Virus record (IMG/VR): IMGVR_UViG_3300047094_003366
Location: 1 to 34,459 of that record
Source of the DNA: a virus
Direction: 5' to 3' (one strand)
DNA: 34,459 nt
Part shown: one piece after another, positions 12,595 to 33,722 of the stretch
Position numbering within the stretch: position 1 is the first letter of the stretch
Layout: every line of letters begins with the position of its first letter
Notes under the pieces: generated by a model
The model's input: only the letters and a program-made list of their open reading frames with translations
Databases searched by the model: none
What the model was told of the DNA's origin: nothing
Made by a program: the position numbers and the translations under genes

Positions 12595-13884
12595 ATGGAT
12601 CAGAACTGGCCGGCCCAGAGCAGTGAGTTCTGGCCGATAGAGAAGATCACGCCTTATGCGCGCAACTCCCGCACGCACTCGGATGAACAGGTTGCGCAGA
12701 TCGCTGCCTCAATCCGTGAATGGGGCTGGACCAATCCGATCCTCGTCGATGAAGATGGCGGGCTGATTGCTGGCCATGGACGTCTGCTTGCTGCGCGCAA
12801 GCTGGGGCTGACGCAGATACCGACCATGGTCGCCAAGGGCTGGAGCGAGGCCCAGAAAAAGGCCTACGTCATCGCCGACAACAAGCTGGCGTTGAACGCC
12901 GGCTGGGACCTTGAACTGCTGGCCGTCGAACTGGGCGATCTGCAGGGTTTCGATTTCGACCTGATGTTGACCGGTTTTTCGGACGACGAGCTATCCAAGC
13001 TGCTGACCGAAAAGACCGACGGCCTAACCGACCCTGACGCTGTTCCGGAAGCGCCGATCGACCCTGTCGCCAAGCCCGGTGATGTCTGGCTGCTTGGCAA
13101 GCACAGGCTGGTCTGCGGCGACAGCACCGATGCCGACACCGTCGCCAAGGCGCTGAACGGCGTTTCACCCCACCTGATGGTCACCGATCCTCCCTACGGC
13201 GTCGAGTATGATCCCGCCTGGCGCGAAAAGGCCGGCGTTGCCGCATCCGGAACCGCCAAAGGCAAGGTGCTGAACGATGACAAGGCCGACTGGCGCGAGG
13301 CCTGGGCACTGTTTCCGGGTGACGTCGCCTATGTCTGGCACGCCGGACTGTTTGCCGGTGTTGTCGGCGACAGCCTAGCTTCCTGCGATCTGTTGCTACG
13401 TTCCCAGATCATCTGGGACAAGGGCCAGCTAGTCCTTTCTCGGGGCGACTATCACTGGGAGCATGAGCCCTGCTGGTACGCCGTCAAAAAGGGCGCAAAG
13501 GGGCACTGGGCCGGCGACCGGAAGCAGACTACCATCTGGCACATTCCCAAGCCGAAGAAGAATGAGACCGGACATGGGACCCAGAAGCCAGTCGAGTGCA
13601 TGAAGCGCCCGATCGAGAACAATTCCTGCGCAGGCCAAGCGGTCTACGAGCCGTTTTCAGGGTCTGGCACTACCATCATCGCCGGCGAAATGACTGGCCG
13701 CTCGGTCCACGCGATTGAGCTCAACCCGGCCTACGTCGATGTGACTATTAAACGCTGGCAGGATTTTACCGGCAAGGCTGCAACCCTCGAAGGCGATGGC
13801 CGGACATTCGACGACATCGCTGGGATCTTCAGCAGCGATGTCCCCGCCAATACCGATCCCATCGTAGAGCCCAGCCACCCCTGA
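12595..13884 (+). CDS. ParB-like domain fused to N6-adenine/N4-cytosine DNA methyltransferase
   Basis: The predicted DNA-modifying enzyme has 429 residues. Residues 15-105 form a ParB/Srx-type domain with Ile-Ala-Gly60-His-Gly-Arg-Leu-Leu-Ala. A linker leads to a methyltransferase with motif IV Asp198-Pro-Pro-Tyr201, a long variable region, His-Gly-Thr-Gln-Lys-Pro-Val-Glu, and motif I Phe354-Ser-Gly-Ser-Gly-Thr-Thr360. Motif IV before motif I marks the beta class. AAGGA precedes the ATG. No restriction enzyme lies next to it, so it is likely an orphan methylase shielding phage DNA or marking sites for packaging or regulation. The fusion is common in alphaproteobacterial prophages just before terminase. 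Target sequence unknown. Its last 56 bases overlap a minus-strand gene. Confidence 0.92.
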   Translation: MDQNWPAQSSEFWPIEKITPYARNSRTHSDEQVAQIAASIREWGWTNPILVDEDGGLIAGHGRLLAARKLGLTQIPTMVAKGWSEAQKKAYVIADNKLALNAGWDLELLAVELGDLQGFDFDLMLTGFSDDELSKLLTEKTDGLTDPDAVPEAPIDPVAKPGDVWLLGKHRLVCGDSTDADTVAKALNGVSPHLMVTDPPYGVEYDPAWREKAGVAASGTAKGKVLNDDKADWREAWALFPGDVAYVWHAGLFAGVVGDSLASCDLLLRSQIIWDKGQLVLSRGDYHWEHEPCWYAVKKGAKGHWAGDRKQTTIWHIPKPKKNETGHGTQKPVECMKRPIENNSCAGQAVYEPFSGSGTTIIAGEMTGRSVHAIELNPAYVDVTIKRWQDFTGKAATLEGDGRTFDDIAGIFSSDVPANTDPIVEPSHP

Positions 13885-21996: not shown

Positions 21997-22458
21997 ATGA
22001 CCGTTCGGACTTCCGCCGGCACCACCTTGAAGGTGTCGGCCTCTACCCCTGCGACCTTTGATGCCACCGGCTACAACGCGCTGACCATGACCACGGTTGG
22101 TGAAGTTTCCGACCTTGGCGAGTTCGGCCGCGAGTTCAATCTCGTGACCTTCAACCCTGTCGGCAGCCGCGGCGTCGTCAAGAAGAAGGGCAGCTTCAAT
22201 CAGGGCACGATGACCATCCAGATGGGCCTCGATACCGATGATACGGGGCAGATCCTTCTAAAATCCGCGTCTAGTTCAGATGCCGATCACAGCTTCCTCG
22301 TCACCACCCAGAACGGCGACAAGTACTATTTCCAGGCGCAGGTCATGAGCTTCAAGGTCAACGTCGGCTCGGTCGACCAGATCACCACCGCCACCGTTAC
22401 GCTGGAACTCACCACCAATTCTGCCGGTGTGGGCATCGTTGAAGTGCTCGCGCCCTGA
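21997..22458 (+). CDS. Major tail tube protein
   Basis: This 153-residue protein has AAGGA before the ATG. It is beta-rich, with Val-Gly-Glu-Val-Ser-Asp-Leu-Gly-Glu-Phe-Gly-Arg-Glu-Phe-Asn, Val-Lys-Lys-Lys-Gly-Ser-Phe-Asn-Gln-Gly-Thr-Met-Thr and Tyr-Tyr-Phe-Gln-Ala-Gln-Val-Met-Ser-Phe-Lys. This is typical of tube proteins of non-contractile tails. It lies directly before the chaperone and tape-measure genes. No sheath protein gene is present, which supports a siphovirus tail. Confidence 0.88.
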   Translation: MTVRTSAGTTLKVSASTPATFDATGYNALTMTTVGEVSDLGEFGREFNLVTFNPVGSRGVVKKKGSFNQGTMTIQMGLDTDDTGQILLKSASSSDADHSFLVTTQNGDKYYFQAQVMSFKVNVGSVDQITTATVTLELTTNSAGVGIVEVLAP

Positions 22459-22485: not shown

Positions 22486-22902
22486 ATGTTTGACATCACG
22501 ACCCTCGCTGCAACCGACACGTCCACCGTGGAACTCGTCGGCGGCGACGACGCCCCGCTCTTTGATGACAAGGGCAAGCGGCTCTCTATTACGGTCTACG
22601 GCCCGGGCTCGAAGGTCTACCAACGCGCGCAGGCCCGCCAGCAGAACCAGCTGATGGACAAGATCAAGAAGCGCGGGAAGATGGACCAGTCGGCCGAGGA
22701 AAAGCTCGCCGAACAGGCCGATTTTCTGGCCGCCTGCACGGTCAGCTTCAACGGCTTTGCCTATCCGCCCGCTGAAGGGCTGGAAGGTCAGGAGCTGTTC
22801 CGCAAGGCCTATGCCGATCCCTCGATCGGTTTCATCGCCACCCAGGTTGCCGCTCACATCAATGACTGGGCAAATTTTACGAAGAGCTCGGGGCAGAGCT
22901 GA
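22486..22902 (+). CDS. Tail assembly chaperone, short (G-like) form
   Basis: This 138-residue protein is the zero-frame product and has GGAG before the ATG. It is expected to bind the tape measure protein before the tube forms. It contains Arg-Leu-Ser-Ile-Thr-Val-Tyr-Gly-Pro-Gly-Ser-Lys-Val-Tyr-Gln-Arg-Ala, a charged Lys-Ile-Lys-Lys-Arg-Gly-Lys-Met-Asp-Gln-Ser-Ala-Glu-Glu helix, and Phe-Asn-Gly-Phe-Ala-Tyr-Pro. Only seven sense codons follow the slippery site before the TGA. Those that slip make a 290-residue fusion instead. The position just before the tape measure gene is the one used for lambda G and GT. Confidence 0.88.
   Translation: MFDITTLAATDTSTVELVGGDDAPLFDDKGKRLSITVYGPGSKVYQRAQARQQNQLMDKIKKRGKMDQSAEEKLAEQADFLAACTVSFNGFAYPPAEGLEGQELFRKAYADPSIGFIATQVAAHINDWANFTKSSGQS
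22872..22900 (+). promoter_or_regulatory. Programmed -1 ribosomal frameshift site
   Basis: The heptamer A-AAT-TTT (22872-22878) is in the zero frame of the chaperone gene and fits X-XXY-YYZ exactly. After a six-base spacer comes a stem-loop, AGCTC (22885-22889), loop GGGGCA, GAGCT (22896-22900). The zero-frame stop is at 22900-22902. The -1 frame from the slip stays open to 23357, next to the tape measure start. Slip site, spacer length, stem and long open frame all agree with known tail-chaperone frameshifts. Confidence 0.88.
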
Positions 22903-23357
22903 GCCTCTATGTCCGGCAACTGGCGTGGCTGGGCACAGCGCCAAAGCCGCGCTCACCCAAGCAGGCCAAACCCGACGCTGACACCGAACTGCTGACCCGG
23001 CTGCAGCGGATGGCCATCGACGATCTCACCCCCGACTTTCCGCCGATCCGCACCCCATGGGTGATCGACTGGCTGATGGAAGTGGGCCCAACCGATCCCG
23101 GTGCGATGGGCGCAGTGCCCATCTCATGGGGCTCGATAAGCCAATGGCAGCAATGCATGGGGCTAGACCTGCCGCCCTGGCTGGTCCGCCTGCTGCGACG
23201 CCTGTCTGTGGAGTTCGTCGCCGAAACAGTCCGCGCCCGCGAGCCGGATTGTCCGCCGCCCTGGACCGCCACGTCCGTTCTCAACCGTGATGAAGTTTCC
23301 CGGAAAGTGACCAACGCCTTCCGGGCGCTGATGATGTCGAAGGAGCCTGCAAAATGA
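22878..23357 (+). CDS. Frameshift extension of the tail chaperone (GT-like)
   Basis: This is the -1 frame continuation of the preceding gene, 159 codons after the slip, giving a fusion of about 290 residues. It opens Tyr-Glu-Glu-Leu-Gly-Ala-Glu-Leu-Ser-Leu-Tyr-Val-Arg-Gln-Leu-Ala-Trp-Leu-Gly. It later has Trp-Val-Ile-Asp-Trp-Leu-Met-Glu-Val-Gly and Leu-Pro-Pro-Trp-Leu-Val-Arg-Leu-Leu-Arg-Arg-Leu. The first ATG in this frame (23010) has no ribosome-binding site and would cut the helical start off, so independent translation is unlikely. It ends in an ATGA overlap with the tape measure gene. By analogy with lambda, this part would link the tape measure to the tube protein. Confidence 0.85.
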   Translation, partial: YEELGAELSLYVRQLAWLGTAPKPRSPKQAKPDADTELLTRLQRMAIDDLTPDFPPIRTPWVIDWLMEVGPTDPGAMGAVPISWGSISQWQQCMGLDLPPWLVRLLRRLSVEFVAETVRAREPDCPPPWTATSVLNRDEVSRKVTNAFRALMMSKEPAK

Positions 23358-26300
23358 AGGCCGGCACCCTCGAGATTGAGATGATCACCAATGTTGCCCG
23401 GCTCCAGAAGGAGATGGCTGACATCAAGCGGTCGGTTGCAGGCGCCATGGGGGAAGTGGCGGCTTCGTCAGCTCAGGCGGATAGGGCCATTGAGGCCGTC
23501 GGCTCGCGCGGAATGACCCGCATGGGCGGCTCGGCAAAATTGGCCGGCCATCAGATGCAAAATCTCGTCTACCAGCTCAACGACGTGGTGGTCAGCCTAT
23601 TCTCAGGCCAGAAGCCGATGACCGTGTTCATGCAGCAGGGCAGCCAGATCGGTCAGATCGCCATGCAGGCTGGTGTCGGGATCGGCGGCATGGCCCGGGC
23701 ACTGCTGGGGCTGGCTGCAAGTGCGGCAGCGACTGCGCTCACCAACCCCTATTTGCTGGCGGCAGCCGCTGCCGCAGCCCTCGCGTTCGGCGCGTTCAAG
23801 ATGTTCCAGTCCAGTGTTAAACAGTCGGGCGAGCTCGACAAATATGCCGCTAGCCTTGGGCTCACCGCCAAGGAGATGGAGAAGCTCGGGCCGGTCGGGA
23901 TCACGGTCGGCGACACCATGAAGGGTTTGTGGACCACCGTCTCGGACGGGCTCAACCTTGGGCCTGTCTTCTCCACCCTAAAAGATTGGGCGATCGTAGC
24001 CTTTGAAGCGATCCTTCAGGTCGGCAAATATGCTGTCGCGATCCTATATGCTGGCTGGGTCGGCGGGTTCAACGCGATCCGGATCCTCTGGTCGTCGCTG
24101 CCTGGCGTGATCGGTGAAGCAGCCATAGGCGCTGCCAATCTCGCTATCGCGGGCATCGAATATCTCGCCAATAAGGCGATCGCCGCGCTGAACTGGCTGG
24201 CACACTGGGTCAACCCGGTGCTCGACCGGGTGGGCCTTGCCACCATCGGTCAGATCGAGAGTGTGGCGCTGCCCCGATTGGAAAACAGCTTTGCTGGATC
24301 GACGGCGCGGATGAGCGCTCAGGTCCGGGACGAGTTCACCTCGGCCTTTGGCGATGCCATGGGAATGATGGACGCCTTTTCTGCACAGTGGCGGGAGAAC
24401 AGCCTGAAAGCTGCCCGCGAGCGCCTGGCTGCAAGTGCGGCTGAGATCCGCGGTGATCGCCCGGACCGGGCTGGTGCTGGCCGTCAGTCTCGCGAAGCAA
24501 GCGAGGCCGAGCGTGCTCTCCAGGCTGCCAGAGACTTTGCTGCCAATCTCGCGCTCGAGACCGCCAAGATCGGCAAGACGCCAATTGAGATCAAGCGCAT
24601 GGAAGTCGCCATGGCGGCGCTGAAGGCGCCCACTGACGCGGCACGCATCGCTATTCTCGAAGCTGGTGAGGCCTGGGAACGGACAACCCGCGCGTTCGCC
24701 GCGTCTGAGTTCCTGCGCCAAACGGTCGCCCCGCTTGAACAGCAGGTCGCACTTCTGGGCCAGTCCGCGCGGGCGCAGGCAGTCGCCAATCTTGAGGCGG
24801 AGCGCGAGCAGATTGTGCTCGAACGCGGCGCCCAAGCTTGGGAACGATATCGGGCTGCACGCACCCGCCTGATGGAGGCTGACTTTGCGCAAAGCGACCA
24901 GGAACAGTTTCTCAAGAGCCTCGACGACATGGTCTCGGCCACTGAAGCTGCGGCTCAGGGCATGGCCGATGCTTTCGGTTCAGTTGGCGGGGCGATTGGC
25001 GGCATCACCGTCGAGATCACCCGTTTTGCCTCTGCGCAGGTGGCCGCTGCTAGCCGCGTCGCCGATGCAGAGCGTGAATATGGAAGGTCCGCGTTACAGT
25101 ACGCGGATGCGCGCACGGCGCAGGCTTCGGCTGAGATCAACCATTATGGCAATCTCGCCTCGGCAGCGAAGGGCTTCTTCAAAGAAGGCTCCGAGGGCTT
25201 CAAAGCCATGGCTGCCGCCGAGAAGGTGTTCCGCGCCTTTGAACTCGCCATCGCGATCAAGAACGCAGCAGTGAAAATCGGCCTGATCGGTGCGCAGACC
25301 GCGGCCAAGGTCACCTCCGATACGGCTATGGCGGTCTCCGACACCGCGCGGGCCGGCGTCGAACAGGGCAACTCGATCATTACAACGGGTATCAAGGCGG
25401 TTGAAGCCGTGGTCAACGCCATTCGCTCACTGCCGTTTCCGCTTAACATTGCCGCAGGGGCCGTCACCGCAGGCGTCATCGCCTCGCTCGGCATCGCAAT
25501 TGGCGGAGCTTTTGGCGGCGGCGGTGCCAAGCCCACGCCTGCCAATGACGGCACCAGCACGGCCTTCGGCGATAGCGCGGCAAAATCCGAAAGCATTGCC
25601 AAGGCCATCGATCATCTGCGCGAGGTCGACACGCTGACCATGCGCTATTCTGCTGCCATGCTGGCTTCGCTGAAAAGCATCGAGGCCAACATTGGCGGGC
25701 TTACCAACCTCATCATCCGCACCAATGGCATCGAAGGCTCTGCCGTCGGCATCCAGACCGGCACCAAACTCACCGGACTTTTGGGAACGGCCAATTCGAT
25801 GCTGACTGGCATCTCCAACTTTTCCAGCAGCAAGACGGGCTCGCTGATTGGTGCCGGCATCGGGATGGCGATCGCGGGGCCGATTGGCGCTGCCATTGGC
25901 TTCCTGGGCGCCAAGCTGCTGGGCGGTCTCGGCAAGGTCCTTGGCAGCATCGTAGGCGCTCTGTTTGGCACCAAGACCAGCATCGTTGGCCAGGGCATTT
26001 ATGGCGGCGCGCAGGCGCTCGGTTCGATCATGTCGGGCGGTTTTGACGCTAGCTATTACTCCGACATCAAGAAGACCAAGAAGTTCCTCGGGATCAGTAC
26101 CGGCTCGAGCTACTCCACCCAGTACACCGCGGCAGACGCCGAACTCGAGCGCCAGTTCAGCCTGATCTTCGAAGGCTTCTACGGCGCGATCTCGGCGGCT
26201 GCCGGCCCGCTGGGCCTTTCGCTCGGCGAGGTGCAGTCGCGCCTTTCTGGATTTGTGGTCAACATCGGCAAGATCGATTTGAAGGGCCTGACCGGGACCG

Positions 26301-27550
26301 AGATCCAGGAGAAGCTGACCGCCGTCTTCGGGGCTGCCGCCGACAATCTTGCCCGGACTGCGGTGCCAGGGCTCGAGCAGTTCCAGAAGGTCGGTGAAGG
26401 CTATTTCGAGACGCTGGTGCGGGTTGCCTCCAGCATCGAGGCGGTGACCAGTACGCTCAGCCTTCTGGGCACCTCGGTTGAGGGTCTGAGCCTCAGCGCC
26501 AAGATGAACCTCTTCGACCTGTTCGGCTCGGCCAGCGACATGGCGTCTGCCGCAGGTGAGTATTTTGCTCTCTATTACACCAAGGCCGAACAGGCCTCGG
26601 CGCAGACCGCGCAGATGGCCAGGGTCTTTGACAGCCTAGGGCTTGCGCTGCCGCAAAGCATCGCGGGCTTCCGCGCGCTGGTTGAAGCGCAGGACCTTAC
26701 CACCGTATCTGGACAGGCAGCTTACGCAGCGCTGATCCAGTTGGCGCCGGCGTTCGCCGATCTGGTTGGTGCTGCGCAGGATGCTGCCAGTGCCGCTGCC
26801 ATTCTTGATGAGCGGTTCTCACTCGAGCGGCGGATCCTGGAACTTCAGGGCGATACTGCAGCGCTGCGCGCGCTCGACCTTGCCCAGATCGATATGTCTA
26901 ACAAGGCGCTGCAGGAACAGGTCTGGGCGCTTGAAGATCAGCAAAAGGCAGCCGATGACGCCGCCAATGCCGCGGAACAGCTTCGCAATGCATGGGCCCA
27001 AATCACCGATGGACTGATCGCCGAGATCAAGCGGATCCGGGGCGTGATGAGCGATACGCCGACAAACTATGCCGTGGCCCTTGCTGCGTTTAACAACGCC
27101 TCGATGCTGGCGCGTTCGGGTGACCAGGAAGCAGCCAAGGCGCTGCCGGGCTTGAGCCAGGCTCTGCTTTCGGTCGCAGCCAACACCGCACGGTCGGCAG
27201 AAGATCTGGGCCGGCTTCAGGGCCTGACCGCGGCAAGCCTCGAACAGACATTGGCGATCATCAGCCAGGCGAGCGGAACGGAATCCGGCGCTGCGACATC
27301 TGCCGCCACCACGCCAAGCTGGTGGGAGCAGTTCACTGCCAATCAGATGGGTACGCCAAGCATTCCGGCCAACGACGGCCAGAGCGCGATGATCGATGAA
27401 CTCAAGGCGCTCAGGCAGGAGGTGTCTGACCTGCGCGGCGAACAGCGGATAGCTGCAGCCACGATCGCGTCGGGAACGAGCAAAACAGCCCGCATTCTGG
27501 AGCGGGTCACGCCTGATGGTGATGCCATTTCCACTAGGTCGGCGGCATGA
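23354..27550 (+). CDS. Tape measure protein
   Basis: The tail-length determinant has 1398 residues. The N-terminus has a charged helical part, then Ala-Gly-His-Gln-Met-Gln-Asn-Leu-Val-Tyr-Gln-Leu-Asn-Asp-Val-Val-Val-Ser-Leu (about 65-85), a signature of this tape family. Two hydrophobic segments (about 112-130 and 135-155) follow, then long coiled-coil regions (about 330-530) and Gly/Ala-rich hydrophobic stretches near 690-720 and 830-880. The C-terminal half has another helical domain and ends in a Glu/Lys coiled coil. At the usual rate of about 0.15 nm per residue, the tail would be near 200 nm. It is coupled to both neighbours by ATGA. Confidence 0.93.
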   Translation: MKAGTLEIEMITNVARLQKEMADIKRSVAGAMGEVAASSAQADRAIEAVGSRGMTRMGGSAKLAGHQMQNLVYQLNDVVVSLFSGQKPMTVFMQQGSQIGQIAMQAGVGIGGMARALLGLAASAAATALTNPYLLAAAAAAALAFGAFKMFQSSVKQSGELDKYAASLGLTAKEMEKLGPVGITVGDTMKGLWTTVSDGLNLGPVFSTLKDWAIVAFEAILQVGKYAVAILYAGWVGGFNAIRILWSSLPGVIGEAAIGAANLAIAGIEYLANKAIAALNWLAHWVNPVLDRVGLATIGQIESVALPRLENSFAGSTARMSAQVRDEFTSAFGDAMGMMDAFSAQWRENSLKAARERLAASAAEIRGDRPDRAGAGRQSREASEAERALQAARDFAANLALETAKIGKTPIEIKRMEVAMAALKAPTDAARIAILEAGEAWERTTRAFAASEFLRQTVAPLEQQVALLGQSARAQAVANLEAEREQIVLERGAQAWERYRAARTRLMEADFAQSDQEQFLKSLDDMVSATEAAAQGMADAFGSVGGAIGGITVEITRFASAQVAAASRVADAEREYGRSALQYADARTAQASAEINHYGNLASAAKGFFKEGSEGFKAMAAAEKVFRAFELAIAIKNAAVKIGLIGAQTAAKVTSDTAMAVSDTARAGVEQGNSIITTGIKAVEAVVNAIRSLPFPLNIAAGAVTAGVIASLGIAIGGAFGGGGAKPTPANDGTSTAFGDSAAKSESIAKAIDHLREVDTLTMRYSAAMLASLKSIEANIGGLTNLIIRTNGIEGSAVGIQTGTKLTGLLGTANSMLTGISNFSSSKTGSLIGAGIGMAIAGPIGAAIGFLGAKLLGGLGKVLGSIVGALFGTKTSIVGQGIYGGAQALGSIMSGGFDASYYSDIKKTKKFLGISTGSSYSTQYTAADAELERQFSLIFEGFYGAISAAAGPLGLSLGEVQSRLSGFVVNIGKIDLKGLTGTEIQEKLTAVFGAAADNLARTAVPGLEQFQKVGEGYFETLVRVASSIEAVTSTLSLLGTSVEGLSLSAKMNLFDLFGSASDMASAAGEYFALYYTKAEQASAQTAQMARVFDSLGLALPQSIAGFRALVEAQDLTTVSGQAAYAALIQLAPAFADLVGAAQDAASAAAILDERFSLERRILELQGDTAALRALDLAQIDMSNKALQEQVWALEDQQKAADDAANAAEQLRNAWAQITDGLIAEIKRIRGVMSDTPTNYAVALAAFNNASMLARSGDQEAAKALPGLSQALLSVAANTARSAEDLGRLQGLTAASLEQTLAIISQASGTESGAATSAATTPSWWEQFTANQMGTPSIPANDGQSAMIDELKALRQEVSDLRGEQRIAAATIASGTSKTARILERVTPDGDAISTRSAA

Positions 27551-28475: not shown

Positions 28476-29612
28476 ATGCCTATAACCGATCTGCCAACGC
28501 CGCCCACAAGGGCGGACGCGGCAAACTTTAACGCGCGCGCTGATGCATTCCTTGGAGCGCTGCCGACTTTTGCAGCCCAAGCCAACGCGCTTGCGGTTGA
28601 GGCTAACGGCTATGCAAGCAACGCATCTGCAAGTGCAGCTACTGCAGTCAATGCGCCTGGTACCAGTGCAACCAGCACGACCTCGTTAGGGATTGGCGCT
28701 GGCTCCAAGTCCTTGACGATCCAAACAGCCAAAGCCTTCGTGGTGGGGCAGTGGGTCACCGTCACCAACACGGCGGCGCCGGCCAACTGGATGCATGGCC
28801 AGATCACCGCCTACAACAGCGGCACTGGAACGCTTGTTGTCAGCGTCTCTGCGACTGGCGGAAGCGGTACCTATGGCGCTTGGACGATTGGGCTCAGCGC
28901 GCCTGCGCAGTCGAGCGCTGCGTTGCTCTCGACGTCGAGCTATGCCGACCCTGTATGGCTGACTTCGCTTGCAGCTTCCAAGGTCACTGGGACCGTGCAG
29001 ATCTCTAATGGTGGAACAGGCGCTGCGACCGGAGCCGATGCTCGCAATAACCTCGATGTGCCATCCAGAAGCGGTGTGGGAGCGGCAGGCACCTGGGGCA
29101 TATCGATTAGCGGATCTGCCGCCAGTGCCAATACGGCAACTACGGCCACACTCGCAGGTACCGCCAATGCGCTTAACATAAGCGGCAGTTATCAGGTCGG
29201 CTCGATTGGGATTGGAACTGCAGCTTCCGGCATGGCCGGTGAGATCCGCGCAACTGGCGACATCACTGCCTATTTTGCGTCCGATGCGCTTCTCAAGGAG
29301 AATGTCCAACCAATCACAGGTGCGCTCAGCGCAGTACTCGGCATTGGAGGCAAGACGTTTGACTGGCGTGATAGCCACATTGCGGCGCGGGGCGGCGAGG
29401 ATGGGTTGTTCGTGCGGAAGGCTGATTTTGGCGTTATCGCTCAGGATGTCGAGGAGGTTTTTCCATTGGCAGTCCGCATTCGTTCAAACGGCCAGATGGC
29501 GGTGGATTACGCCAAGCTGACCGCACTTGCGTTTCAGGCAATTGTGGAACTCAAGGCCGAGGTCGATGCGCTTCAAGAGCAAATTATTGCCCCAACCGAG
29601 AAAGGAGGCTGA
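28476..29612 (+). CDS. Tail fibre with S74 self-cleaving chaperone
   Basis: The predicted fibre has 378 residues. Residues 1-60 are an Ala-rich helical start, likely the attachment end. The middle (60-260) is rich in Gly, Ser, Thr and Ala in short beta repeats (Gly-Thr-Ala-Asn-Ala-Leu-Asn-Ile-Ser-Gly). The C-terminal 110 residues are an S74 intramolecular chaperone with Ser269-Asp-Ala-Leu-Leu-Lys274, the catalytic Ser-Lys pair, then Phe-Gly-Val-Ile-Ala-Gln-Asp-Val-Glu-Glu-Val-Phe-Pro. By family knowledge it helps the trimer fold and then cuts itself off before Ser269. A coiled coil ends the protein. It is a likely receptor-binding protein. Confidence 0.9.
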   Translation: MPITDLPTPPTRADAANFNARADAFLGALPTFAAQANALAVEANGYASNASASAATAVNAPGTSATSTTSLGIGAGSKSLTIQTAKAFVVGQWVTVTNTAAPANWMHGQITAYNSGTGTLVVSVSATGGSGTYGAWTIGLSAPAQSSAALLSTSSYADPVWLTSLAASKVTGTVQISNGGTGAATGADARNNLDVPSRSGVGAAGTWGISISGSAASANTATTATLAGTANALNISGSYQVGSIGIGTAASGMAGEIRATGDITAYFASDALLKENVQPITGALSAVLGIGGKTFDWRDSHIAARGGEDGLFVRKADFGVIAQDVEEVFPLAVRIRSNGQMAVDYAKLTALAFQAIVELKAEVDALQEQIIAPTEKGG

Positions 29613-31300: not shown

Positions 31301-32841
31301 TGGCCAATACTCTTCGCATCAAACGCCGCGCCGTAGGCGGTGCGGCCGGGGCTCCGGCATCGCTCGCCAATGCCGAGCTCGCATTTAACGAACAGGACAA
31401 CACGCTCTATTACGGCTCCGGGACCGGGGGTGCTGGCGGCACGGCCACCTCCGTCATTGCGATTGGTGGTCCGGGCGCCTTTGTCGGGCTTTCCGGTGAC
31501 CAGACAGTCGCCGGGATCAAGACCTTCTCGAGTACAATTGCGGGTTCGATCTCGGGCAATGCTGGCACTGCAACCGCGCTGACAACGGCGCGTTCGCTCG
31601 GCCTTTCCGGCGACGTGACCGGCACGGCCTCGTTCAATGGCACCGCAAATGCGACGATCGCGGCCACGCTAGCCAACAGCGGTGTCACTGCAGGCACCTA
31701 TGGTTCTGCCACGCAAGTCGGCCAGGTTACGGTCGACGCCAAAGGGCGCGTAACGACCGCCAGCAACGTCGCGATCACGTTCCCGGTGACTTCGGTGGCT
31801 GGTCGTTCCGGTGCCATCACGCTCTCCACTAGCGACGTCTCTGAAGGCACCAACCTCTACTTCACCGATGCCCGGGTGCGCGCCAACCGGCTCGACCAGT
31901 TGGCTGCACCTACCGCTGCGGTGGACTTCAACAGCCAGCGCATCACAGGCCTTTCTGACCCGACATCTGCCCAGGACGCCGCCACCAAGAACTACGTCGA
32001 TCTGACTGTTCAGGGGCTTGATCCCAAGGCTTCGGTGAGAGCCGCATCGACCGCCAATATCGCCTCGCTGTCCGGCACCATGACGATCGACGGCGTGGCG
32101 CTTGCCGCGGGCGACCGCGTGCTGGTGAAGGACCAGGCCACGCCGTCCCAGAATGGCGTTTATGTCGTTGCCTCTGGCGCCTGGGCGCGCGCGATCGATC
32201 TCTCGACTTGGGACGAGCATGTCTCGGCTTACCTGTTTGTCGAGCAGGGCACAGTGAATGCCGACGTGGGCTACCTCTGCACGGTTGATGGGGGCGGCAC
32301 GCTGGGCACAACAGCCATCACCTTCGTCCAGTTCAATGGCGCGGGTCAGATCGTTGCCGGCAATGGCCTCACCAAGACCGGGAACACGATCGAGGTCGGG
32401 GCCGGCACAGGCATTGCTGTGGCCGCTGACGCTGTCGCACTGACCGGTCAGGCGCTGGCGCTCCACAACCTTGGCTCCAACGGGATAATCGCCCGCACAG
32501 CCGCTGGAACTGTCGCAGCGCGCACGCTGACGGCAGGCTCGACCAAGATCGCAGTCACCAATGGCGATAGTGTGGCGGGCAACCCAACTATCGATGTCAA
32601 CGAAGCCAACCTGACGCTGGGCAATATCGGCGGCACGCTCGGCGTGGCCAAAGGCGGCTCGGGGGCCACCACGCTCACCGGCTACCTCAAGGGCAACGGC
32701 ACCGCGGCGTTCACGGCCTCCGCGACTATTCCCAATACTGACATCTCCGGGCTCGGCTCCATGTCGACGCAGGCGGCTAGCAACGTCGCGATCACTGGTG
32801 GCTCTATCGATGGCGTGACGTTGGACGGTGGAACCTTCTGA
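31300..32841 (+). CDS. Long tail fibre protein
   Basis: This 513-residue protein has an N-terminal module at residues 1-42 (Leu-Arg-Ile-Lys-Arg-Arg, then [15 protein letters not shown]) found in phage fibres, likely the joint. The rest is Gly/Thr/Ala/Ser-rich beta repeats, e.g. [10 protein letters not shown] and [10 protein letters not shown]. A distinct domain (about 225-350) contains [10 protein letters not shown] and Gly-Asp-Arg-Val-Leu-Val-Lys-Asp-Gln. It has no S74 domain. It may act as a shaft whose tip is the next protein. Confidence 0.85.
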
Positions 32842-33722
32842 TGCCGAGCACGATCCTACTCAAACGGTCCTCGACTGCATCGAGCATCCCTGCTGCGGGC
32901 GCTCTTCAGACAGGAGAGCTTGCCGTCAATCTTACCGATCAGAAGCTTTACTCCAAGACCGCAGGCGGCGCTGTAGTGCAGGTTGGTTTTGGCAATATGA
33001 CTTCGTCCCTAATCACGGCAGCGCTTGGCTTTACCCCTTACAATGCCTCTAATCCAAACGGCTATATAACGGCCAGCGCTTCGATAACCGGGGCCTCTGG
33101 ATCCTGCTCGGGCAATGCTGCTACTTCGACCAGATGGGCCACTGGTCGGACCATCGCTTTGAGTGGCGATATTTCGGGAACAAGCGCTGCCTTTGATGGC
33201 ACTGCTTCGCTTTCATTTGCGACCACGCTCGCCAGCTCAGGCGTAGTTGCCGGAACTTATCTCAAGGTAACGGTCGATACTAAGGGCCGCGTCACTGCAG
33301 GTACTGCAATGTCGTCCGGAGATGTAACAGGAGCGCTGGGCTACACGCCGGCGAATAGGGCAGGGGATAGTTTTACAGGCGGCATCTCGGTGTCAGGTGC
33401 AATTACTGCGACTGGTGATATCACGGCTTATTCTGACGCATCGCTCAAGACTGATGTTGCCACGATTAAAGGTGCGCTTGCGCTGGTAGAGCGGATGCGA
33501 GGGGTTACTTACGCGCGCATTGATACAGGGGAACACGGGATTGGCGTGATCGCCCAAGAGTTAAAGGGCGTGCTGCCCGAGGCTGTTGCGGAAAATCCCG
33601 ATGGGATGTTGTCAGTTGCCTATGGAAATTTGGTGGGCGTGCTTGTTGAAGCTTTAAAAGAAATTGCGGCCCGAACCGATCACCAAGCGCGCGATATCGC
33701 TGAATTGAAGGCAAAGCTATGA
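32841..33722 (+). CDS. Tail fibre with S74 self-cleaving chaperone, second copy
   Basis: This 293-residue fibre repeats the N-terminal module of the gene before it (Ile-Leu-Leu-Lys-Arg, Gly-Glu-Leu-Ala-Val-Asn-Leu-Thr-Asp-Gln-Lys-Leu-Tyr). A repeat shaft follows, including Val-Thr-Val-Asp-Thr-Lys-Gly-Arg-Val-Thr. It ends in an S74 domain with Ser198-Asp-Ala-Ser-Leu-Lys203 and Gly-Ile-Gly-Val-Ile-Ala-Gln-Glu-Leu. Cleavage before Ser198 would leave a fibre of 197 residues. The S74 part is somewhat shorter than in the fibre at 28476. The gene is coupled by TGATG at its start and ATGA at its end. Confidence 0.88.
   Translation: MPSTILLKRSSTASSIPAAGALQTGELAVNLTDQKLYSKTAGGAVVQVGFGNMTSSLITAALGFTPYNASNPNGYITASASITGASGSCSGNAATSTRWATGRTIALSGDISGTSAAFDGTASLSFATTLASSGVVAGTYLKVTVDTKGRVTAGTAMSSGDVTGALGYTPANRAGDSFTGGISVSGAITATGDITAYSDASLKTDVATIKGALALVERMRGVTYARIDTGEHGIGVIAQELKGVLPEAVAENPDGMLSVAYGNLVGVLVEALKEIAARTDHQARDIAELKAKL

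Follow-up and report, generated by a model that had tools for sequence, protein, structure and literature searches.

The two overlapping reading frames between the tail tube and tape measure genes of the analysed window (the whole stretch of 34,459 nucleotides, i.e., a 34.5-kb virus record) are best explained as a tail chaperone pair in which a -1 frameshift yields a fusion of 290 amino acids, and we consider this explanation highly probable. The mechanism is already known, and the window pair adds to it a tail chaperone frameshift of known class. Interpretation of the pair as a lambda-type chaperone frameshift, proposed in an earlier note on this DNA, is supported by its position, by the retention of both frames and the selection acting on them, by the replacement of the heptamer in divergent relatives, and by the fold of the N-domain. 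It joins two genes that annotation splits, both in common prophages of sphingomonads and in Acinetobacter phages. Most interesting is that members of one family have exchanged their slippery heptamers.

Source phage and anatomy of the proposed frameshift region

The window belongs to a temperate siphophage that infects alphaproteobacteria and has a head of the HK97 type: it encodes portal and capsid proteins of this type, a tail module and a large serine recombinase, and relatives of the phage are mostly prophages of sphingomonads. The phage probably integrates by serine-type recombination, given the Resolvase and Recombinase domains of its large serine recombinase (1553-2923, - strand). Elsewhere in the window, a ParB-N domain is joined to an N6/N4 DNA methylase upstream of the terminase (12595-13884), and two proteins of one tail module (28476-29612 and 32841-33722) carry intramolecular chaperone domains of Peptidase_S74 (endosialidase-type). 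The order of genes around the frameshift region (tail tube, chaperone pair, tape measure) equals the V-G-T-H order of lambda. The features are as follows.

21997..22458, + strand: major tail (tube) protein, upstream of the chaperone pair (phrog_158, E 2.7e-17)
22486..22902, + strand: putative zero-frame tail assembly chaperone (gpG-like), 138 aa (open reading frame; dN/dS 0.054; phrog_313; match of the model to 2ob9)
22872..22878, + strand: slippery heptamer A_AAT_TTT, kept in all close relatives spanning the site and in several distant ones
22879..22885, + strand: 7-nt spacer ACGAAGA between the heptamer and the conserved 6-bp stem (direct reading; its first codons lack synonymous variation)
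22886..22904, + strand: predicted stem-loop GCUCGG-(7 nt)-CUGAGC (pairing across 55 distinct sequences, with compensatory changes)
22900..22902, + strand: zero-frame stop TGA, with the same 138-aa zero-frame length in all close relatives spanning the site
22875..23357, + strand: putative gpT-like extension in the -1 frame, which adds 159 residues behind the junction Phe (open frame; dN/dS 0.142; weak PF23812)
23354..27550, + strand: tape measure protein (PF06791 TMP_2, E 6e-16; phrog_7740, E 5e-48)

As in lambda-type G/GT pairs, two overlapping frames, the second at -1, are flanked by the genes for the major tail protein and the tape measure, and a site of the X_XXY_YYZ type is found in phase within the overlap. 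Direct reading bore out the in-frame AAATTTT heptamer at 22872-22878, which the earlier note had reported: AAT (22873) and TTT (22876) are codons of the frame that starts with ATG 22486. The six-base spacer, ACGAAG (22879-22884), leading to the stem as first drawn, was likewise read correctly, and our coordinates agree with the claim of a zero-frame stop at 22900-22902 and of a -1 frame open for 159 codons up to the tape measure start. The -1 frame is open from just past TGA 22863-22865 to TGA 23355-23357, where its stop and the tape measure ATG (23354) overlap as ATGA. The predicted fusion, with the junction ...DWANF-YEELG, consists of 131 + 159 residues, which confirms the length of 290 residues claimed before. 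No upstream Shine-Dalgarno-like stimulator was evident by reading, and neither an intrinsic terminator nor a promoter was found in the chaperone region.

Taken alone, the window is weak evidence for the site, because its other genes contain in-frame X_XXY_YYZ sequences (Y = A/T) at 5 of 6640 codons, and a heptamer arises in 7% of the trials when the last 16 codons are resampled synonymously (AAATTTT itself in 3.5%). Nor does the motif predict anything by itself, since a motif-only scan of viral contigs, with GAYMGNGCAAATTTTTAYRA and a GCG control pattern, gave just unrelated places with no -1 extension. Conservation of the site, in turn, is beyond chance.

Conservation in close relatives

The search with the N part retrieved 80 viral loci (numbered here with the prefix L), 79 of which carry AAATTTT in phase together with a continuing -1 frame, while the remaining one, L030, ends inside the slippery site. 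One pattern of this search contained the junction, and for this reason the searches were repeated with junction-free patterns. With N-terminal patterns of this kind, 15 loci were found in bacterial genomes, all of them with the site (14 of 14 prophage loci and the partial locus L097). Patterns from the C part yielded first 74 loci with new numbers and subsequently a further 80, again with the site in all, these sets overlapping each other and the N-part viral set, so that the counts are not independent. The heptamer and the next codon are invariant across 74 distinct sequences, although the N-part genes prefer AAC and TTC over AAT and TTT. A class-wide search of 385 genomes gave a match in only two, and the PF23812 search of five host genomes gave one weak match. 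Sphingobium sp. DEHP117 (L089/L090) and Novosphingobium sp. ST904 (L173/L175) harbor two copies of the chaperone pair each, presumably belonging to two prophages. Sandarakinorhabdus cyanobacteriorum TH057 also carries a relative (L088-L090 being the loci of this genome and of Sphingobium sp. DEHP117).

The arrangement is thus kept in relatives, as is typical of lambda-type G/GT pairs. An alignment of relatives had been suggested in the earlier note as a check on the conservation of the heptamer and both frames, and all close loci spanning the site keep both. The two outcomes feared there for relatives did not materialize in that form: where AAATTTT is absent, a different slippery site occupies its place, and both parts in one continuous frame were found in none of the relatives examined.

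Selection on both frames and the possibility of two separate genes

Both frames are under purifying selection at the protein level, another property of lambda-type G/GT pairs. For 42 diverged sequences the median dN/dS is 0.054 in frame 0 of the N part and 0.142 in frame -1 of the C part, while the control frames of the same DNA show values of 2.0-4.9 (2.0-2.7 for the C-part controls) and 4-5 stops per sequence.

The best surviving alternative, which we nevertheless hold to be improbable, is that of two separate genes, the second protein being made without any fusion from ATG 23010 or from a non-standard CTG (22866 or 22899) by translational coupling or reinitiation. ATG 23010, where gene-calling programs would place the start, is present in 70 of 73 relatives, as is CTG 22899 in 69 of 73, and annotators did split the Acinetobacter relatives into two genes. 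These counts also qualify the earlier statement that the -1 frame has no usable start of its own: it holds for the conserved beginning of the -1 part, where ahead of ATG 23010 just CTG codons occur, with neither ATG nor GTG nor TTG present there, but ATG 23010 itself is widely retained. However, the stretch of -1 codons from the zero-frame stop to ATG 23010 is under the same constraint as the codons beyond it (pN/pS of 0.37 and 0.36, respectively), which indicates that this stretch is part of the protein and that the latter is not simply started at ATG 23010. Besides, two independently translated genes leave unexplained both the exact heptamer and its swap for other slippery heptamers in divergent relatives.

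Turnover of the slippery site in distant relatives

AAATTTT is kept in relatives with identity as low as approximately 25-40% (L169, L081/L082, L174, L273, and L281). In L169 identity is 38% in the C part and 35% in the N part, and the heptamer is present, as in L174. In the Acinetobacter phages MD-2021a (L081) and Effie (L082) only the C part matches, with approximately 26% identity; at the same place they have GCA-AAT-TTT-TAC, and their zero frame ends with ANFYKA. As for the N parts, tblastn against annotated phages gave no match for that of the window; our search found no relatives of the L081 N part and one or two near copies each for those of L169 and L175.

More divergent copies (L273-L281, of which L280 is a weak match) came from searching the genomes of the order with a profile. 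Six of them (L274, L275, L276, L277, L278, and L280) have GGGAAAC, located one codon earlier (TGG GGA AAC TTC), and L279 has GGGAAAG, the heptamer of lambda, a few codons later; L175 contains a T_TTT run, GGGTCTTTTCC. In all divergent copies the second part is at -1, and a junction motif resembling D-W-[AGS]-[NS]-F is mostly retained in L274-L279, L281, and L175. When mapped onto a tree of the fused sequences, the four types of site require three changes, the minimum possible, the placement of the longest branches being uncertain.

It seems rather likely that in this chaperone family the position of the frameshift is fixed by protein architecture, namely by the D-W-x-N-F junction, whereas the slippery sequence is exchangeable. 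If so, A_AAU_UUU, G_GGA_AAC, G_GGA_AAG, and a U_UUU run interchange at almost the same position, and each swap would have needed to preserve a working ratio of the fusion. The family would then be a natural series for the comparison of slippery sites, in which the fusion is kept as heptamers are exchanged, so that the efficiencies of heptamers could be compared among naturally occurring versions of a single gene.

The same substitutions bear on transcriptional slippage at the A/T run, which would produce a mixed mRNA instead of ribosomal slippage. AAATTTT is A/T-rich and the resulting fusion would be the same; however, efficient transcriptional slippage is known from long homopolymers, the runs here comprise just 3 A and 4 T, shorter than those, and GGGAAAC and GGGAAAG of the relatives fit tandem tRNA slippage, which makes this explanation very unlikely. 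An assembly error, or a frameshift mutation that inactivated a single gene, can practically be dismissed: a sequencing error does look like two frames of one apparent protein, but this idea is refuted by more than 90 loci that come from independent metagenomes and genomes and share the two-frame arrangement, as distant phages do.

Stem-loop downstream of the heptamer

The earlier note had described a 5-bp stem AGCTC/GAGCT with a 6-nt loop (22885-22900). This stem does exist; the better supported one, however, is a 6-bp stem that overlaps it, GCUC[G/A]G/CUGAGC (22886-22891/22899-22904), which is longer, competes with the 5-bp stem and can be extended by AG/CU pairs. Across 55 distinct sequences 319 of 330 pair cells of the 6-bp stem are formed, compared with 54-157 in shifted registers; by plain percentage the 5-bp stem fares similarly (265 of 275). 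The 6-bp stem shows double compensatory changes in L031 and L169 (three double-change cells); there it keeps five of its six pairs, while the 5-bp stem drops to three and two of five, respectively. Both arms of the stem are almost frozen at synonymous sites, the loop being free. The fold z-score of the 6-bp stem is 0.24, i.e., it is no more stable than shuffled sequence. Part of the freezing ahead of the zero-frame stop is due to dual coding, and part of the conservation of the stem may likewise reflect the two overlapping reading frames. Judging from the pairing pattern, a conserved helix at 22886-22904 is probable, and this stem-loop is possibly a stimulator of the frameshift.

Proposed mechanism

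According to the frameshift model, most ribosomes would produce the 138-aa chaperone, while a minority would slip back by one base on A_AAU_UUU and produce the 290-aa fusion, tRNA-Asn exchanging AAU for AAA and tRNA-Phe one UUU for another, possibly with the aid of the stem-loop at 22886-22904. A_AAU_UUU is plausible as a slip site since the H_HH.U_UU.Y motifs, which cover it, are among the most efficient ones in E. coli (Sharma et al., 2014, PMC4066793). In our literature search, AAATTTT was not reported for any tail frameshift of a phage; the matches that were set aside concerned a hydrolase of a Wolbachia phage and, for AAAUUUU with "tail", RNA viruses. In the gpG/gpGT system the short form sits on the tape measure protein, and tail tube protein is recruited by the extension (reviewed in PMC5009743). 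By analogy, the short form of the window phage would coat the tape measure protein, and the extension would recruit tail tube subunits at a set ratio.

Comparison with known tail chaperones

A chaperone function of the pair would fit the gene order and the fold of the N-domain, family scores being weak. The zero-frame protein matches phrog_313 "Tail assembly chaperone" weakly (E 3e-4), as do 18 of 24 relatives at E<=0.1; the -1 part matches PF23812 Phage_TAC_18 with E 1e-3, under the gathering score, and so does this part in 22 of 24 relatives. For the AlphaFold model of the N-domain, which like that of the C-domain is of moderate confidence (pLDDT 64), the top solved structure is the HK97 tail assembly chaperone (2ob9), a weak match that is not significant (E 0.14, TM 0.37-0.44). 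Among named viral models, it resembles the tape measure chaperones of Caulobacter phage Sansa (E 4e-3) and Escherichia phage Seurat (E 1.4e-2), and the Seurat fusion is also the second match of the C-domain model (E 5e-2). In both phages the chaperone genes precede the tape measure gene and -1 slippage is annotated; the junction SNFF of Seurat resembles ANF of the window phage. On the other hand, close sequence identity is lacking, and the slip sites of Sansa and Seurat are GGGAAAA and a T-run, as opposed to AAATTTT here.

The Acinetobacter phages Effie and MD-2021a share with the window phage AAATTTT, the D-x-ANF junction and a similar -1 frame. In their annotation the pair appears as two hypothetical proteins unrelated to each other; the slippage was overlooked, as was the initial part of the -1 frame. 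The second CDS is annotated to start well within the -1 frame.

As to lambda itself, where G comprises 140 aa and GT 279 aa, GGGAAAG lies 15 nt ahead of the stop and the end of T overlaps the start of H, the window pair has in common with it the position between the tail tube and tape measure genes, a -1 shift near the end of a first gene of about 140 aa, a fusion of about 280-290 aa, and a second frame overlapping the tape measure start. It differs in the slippery site, A_AAT_TTT instead of G_GGA_AAG. Homology to lambda G and T is not supported by sequence, because these belong to other PHROG families (phrog_42 and phrog_39) than the window pair.
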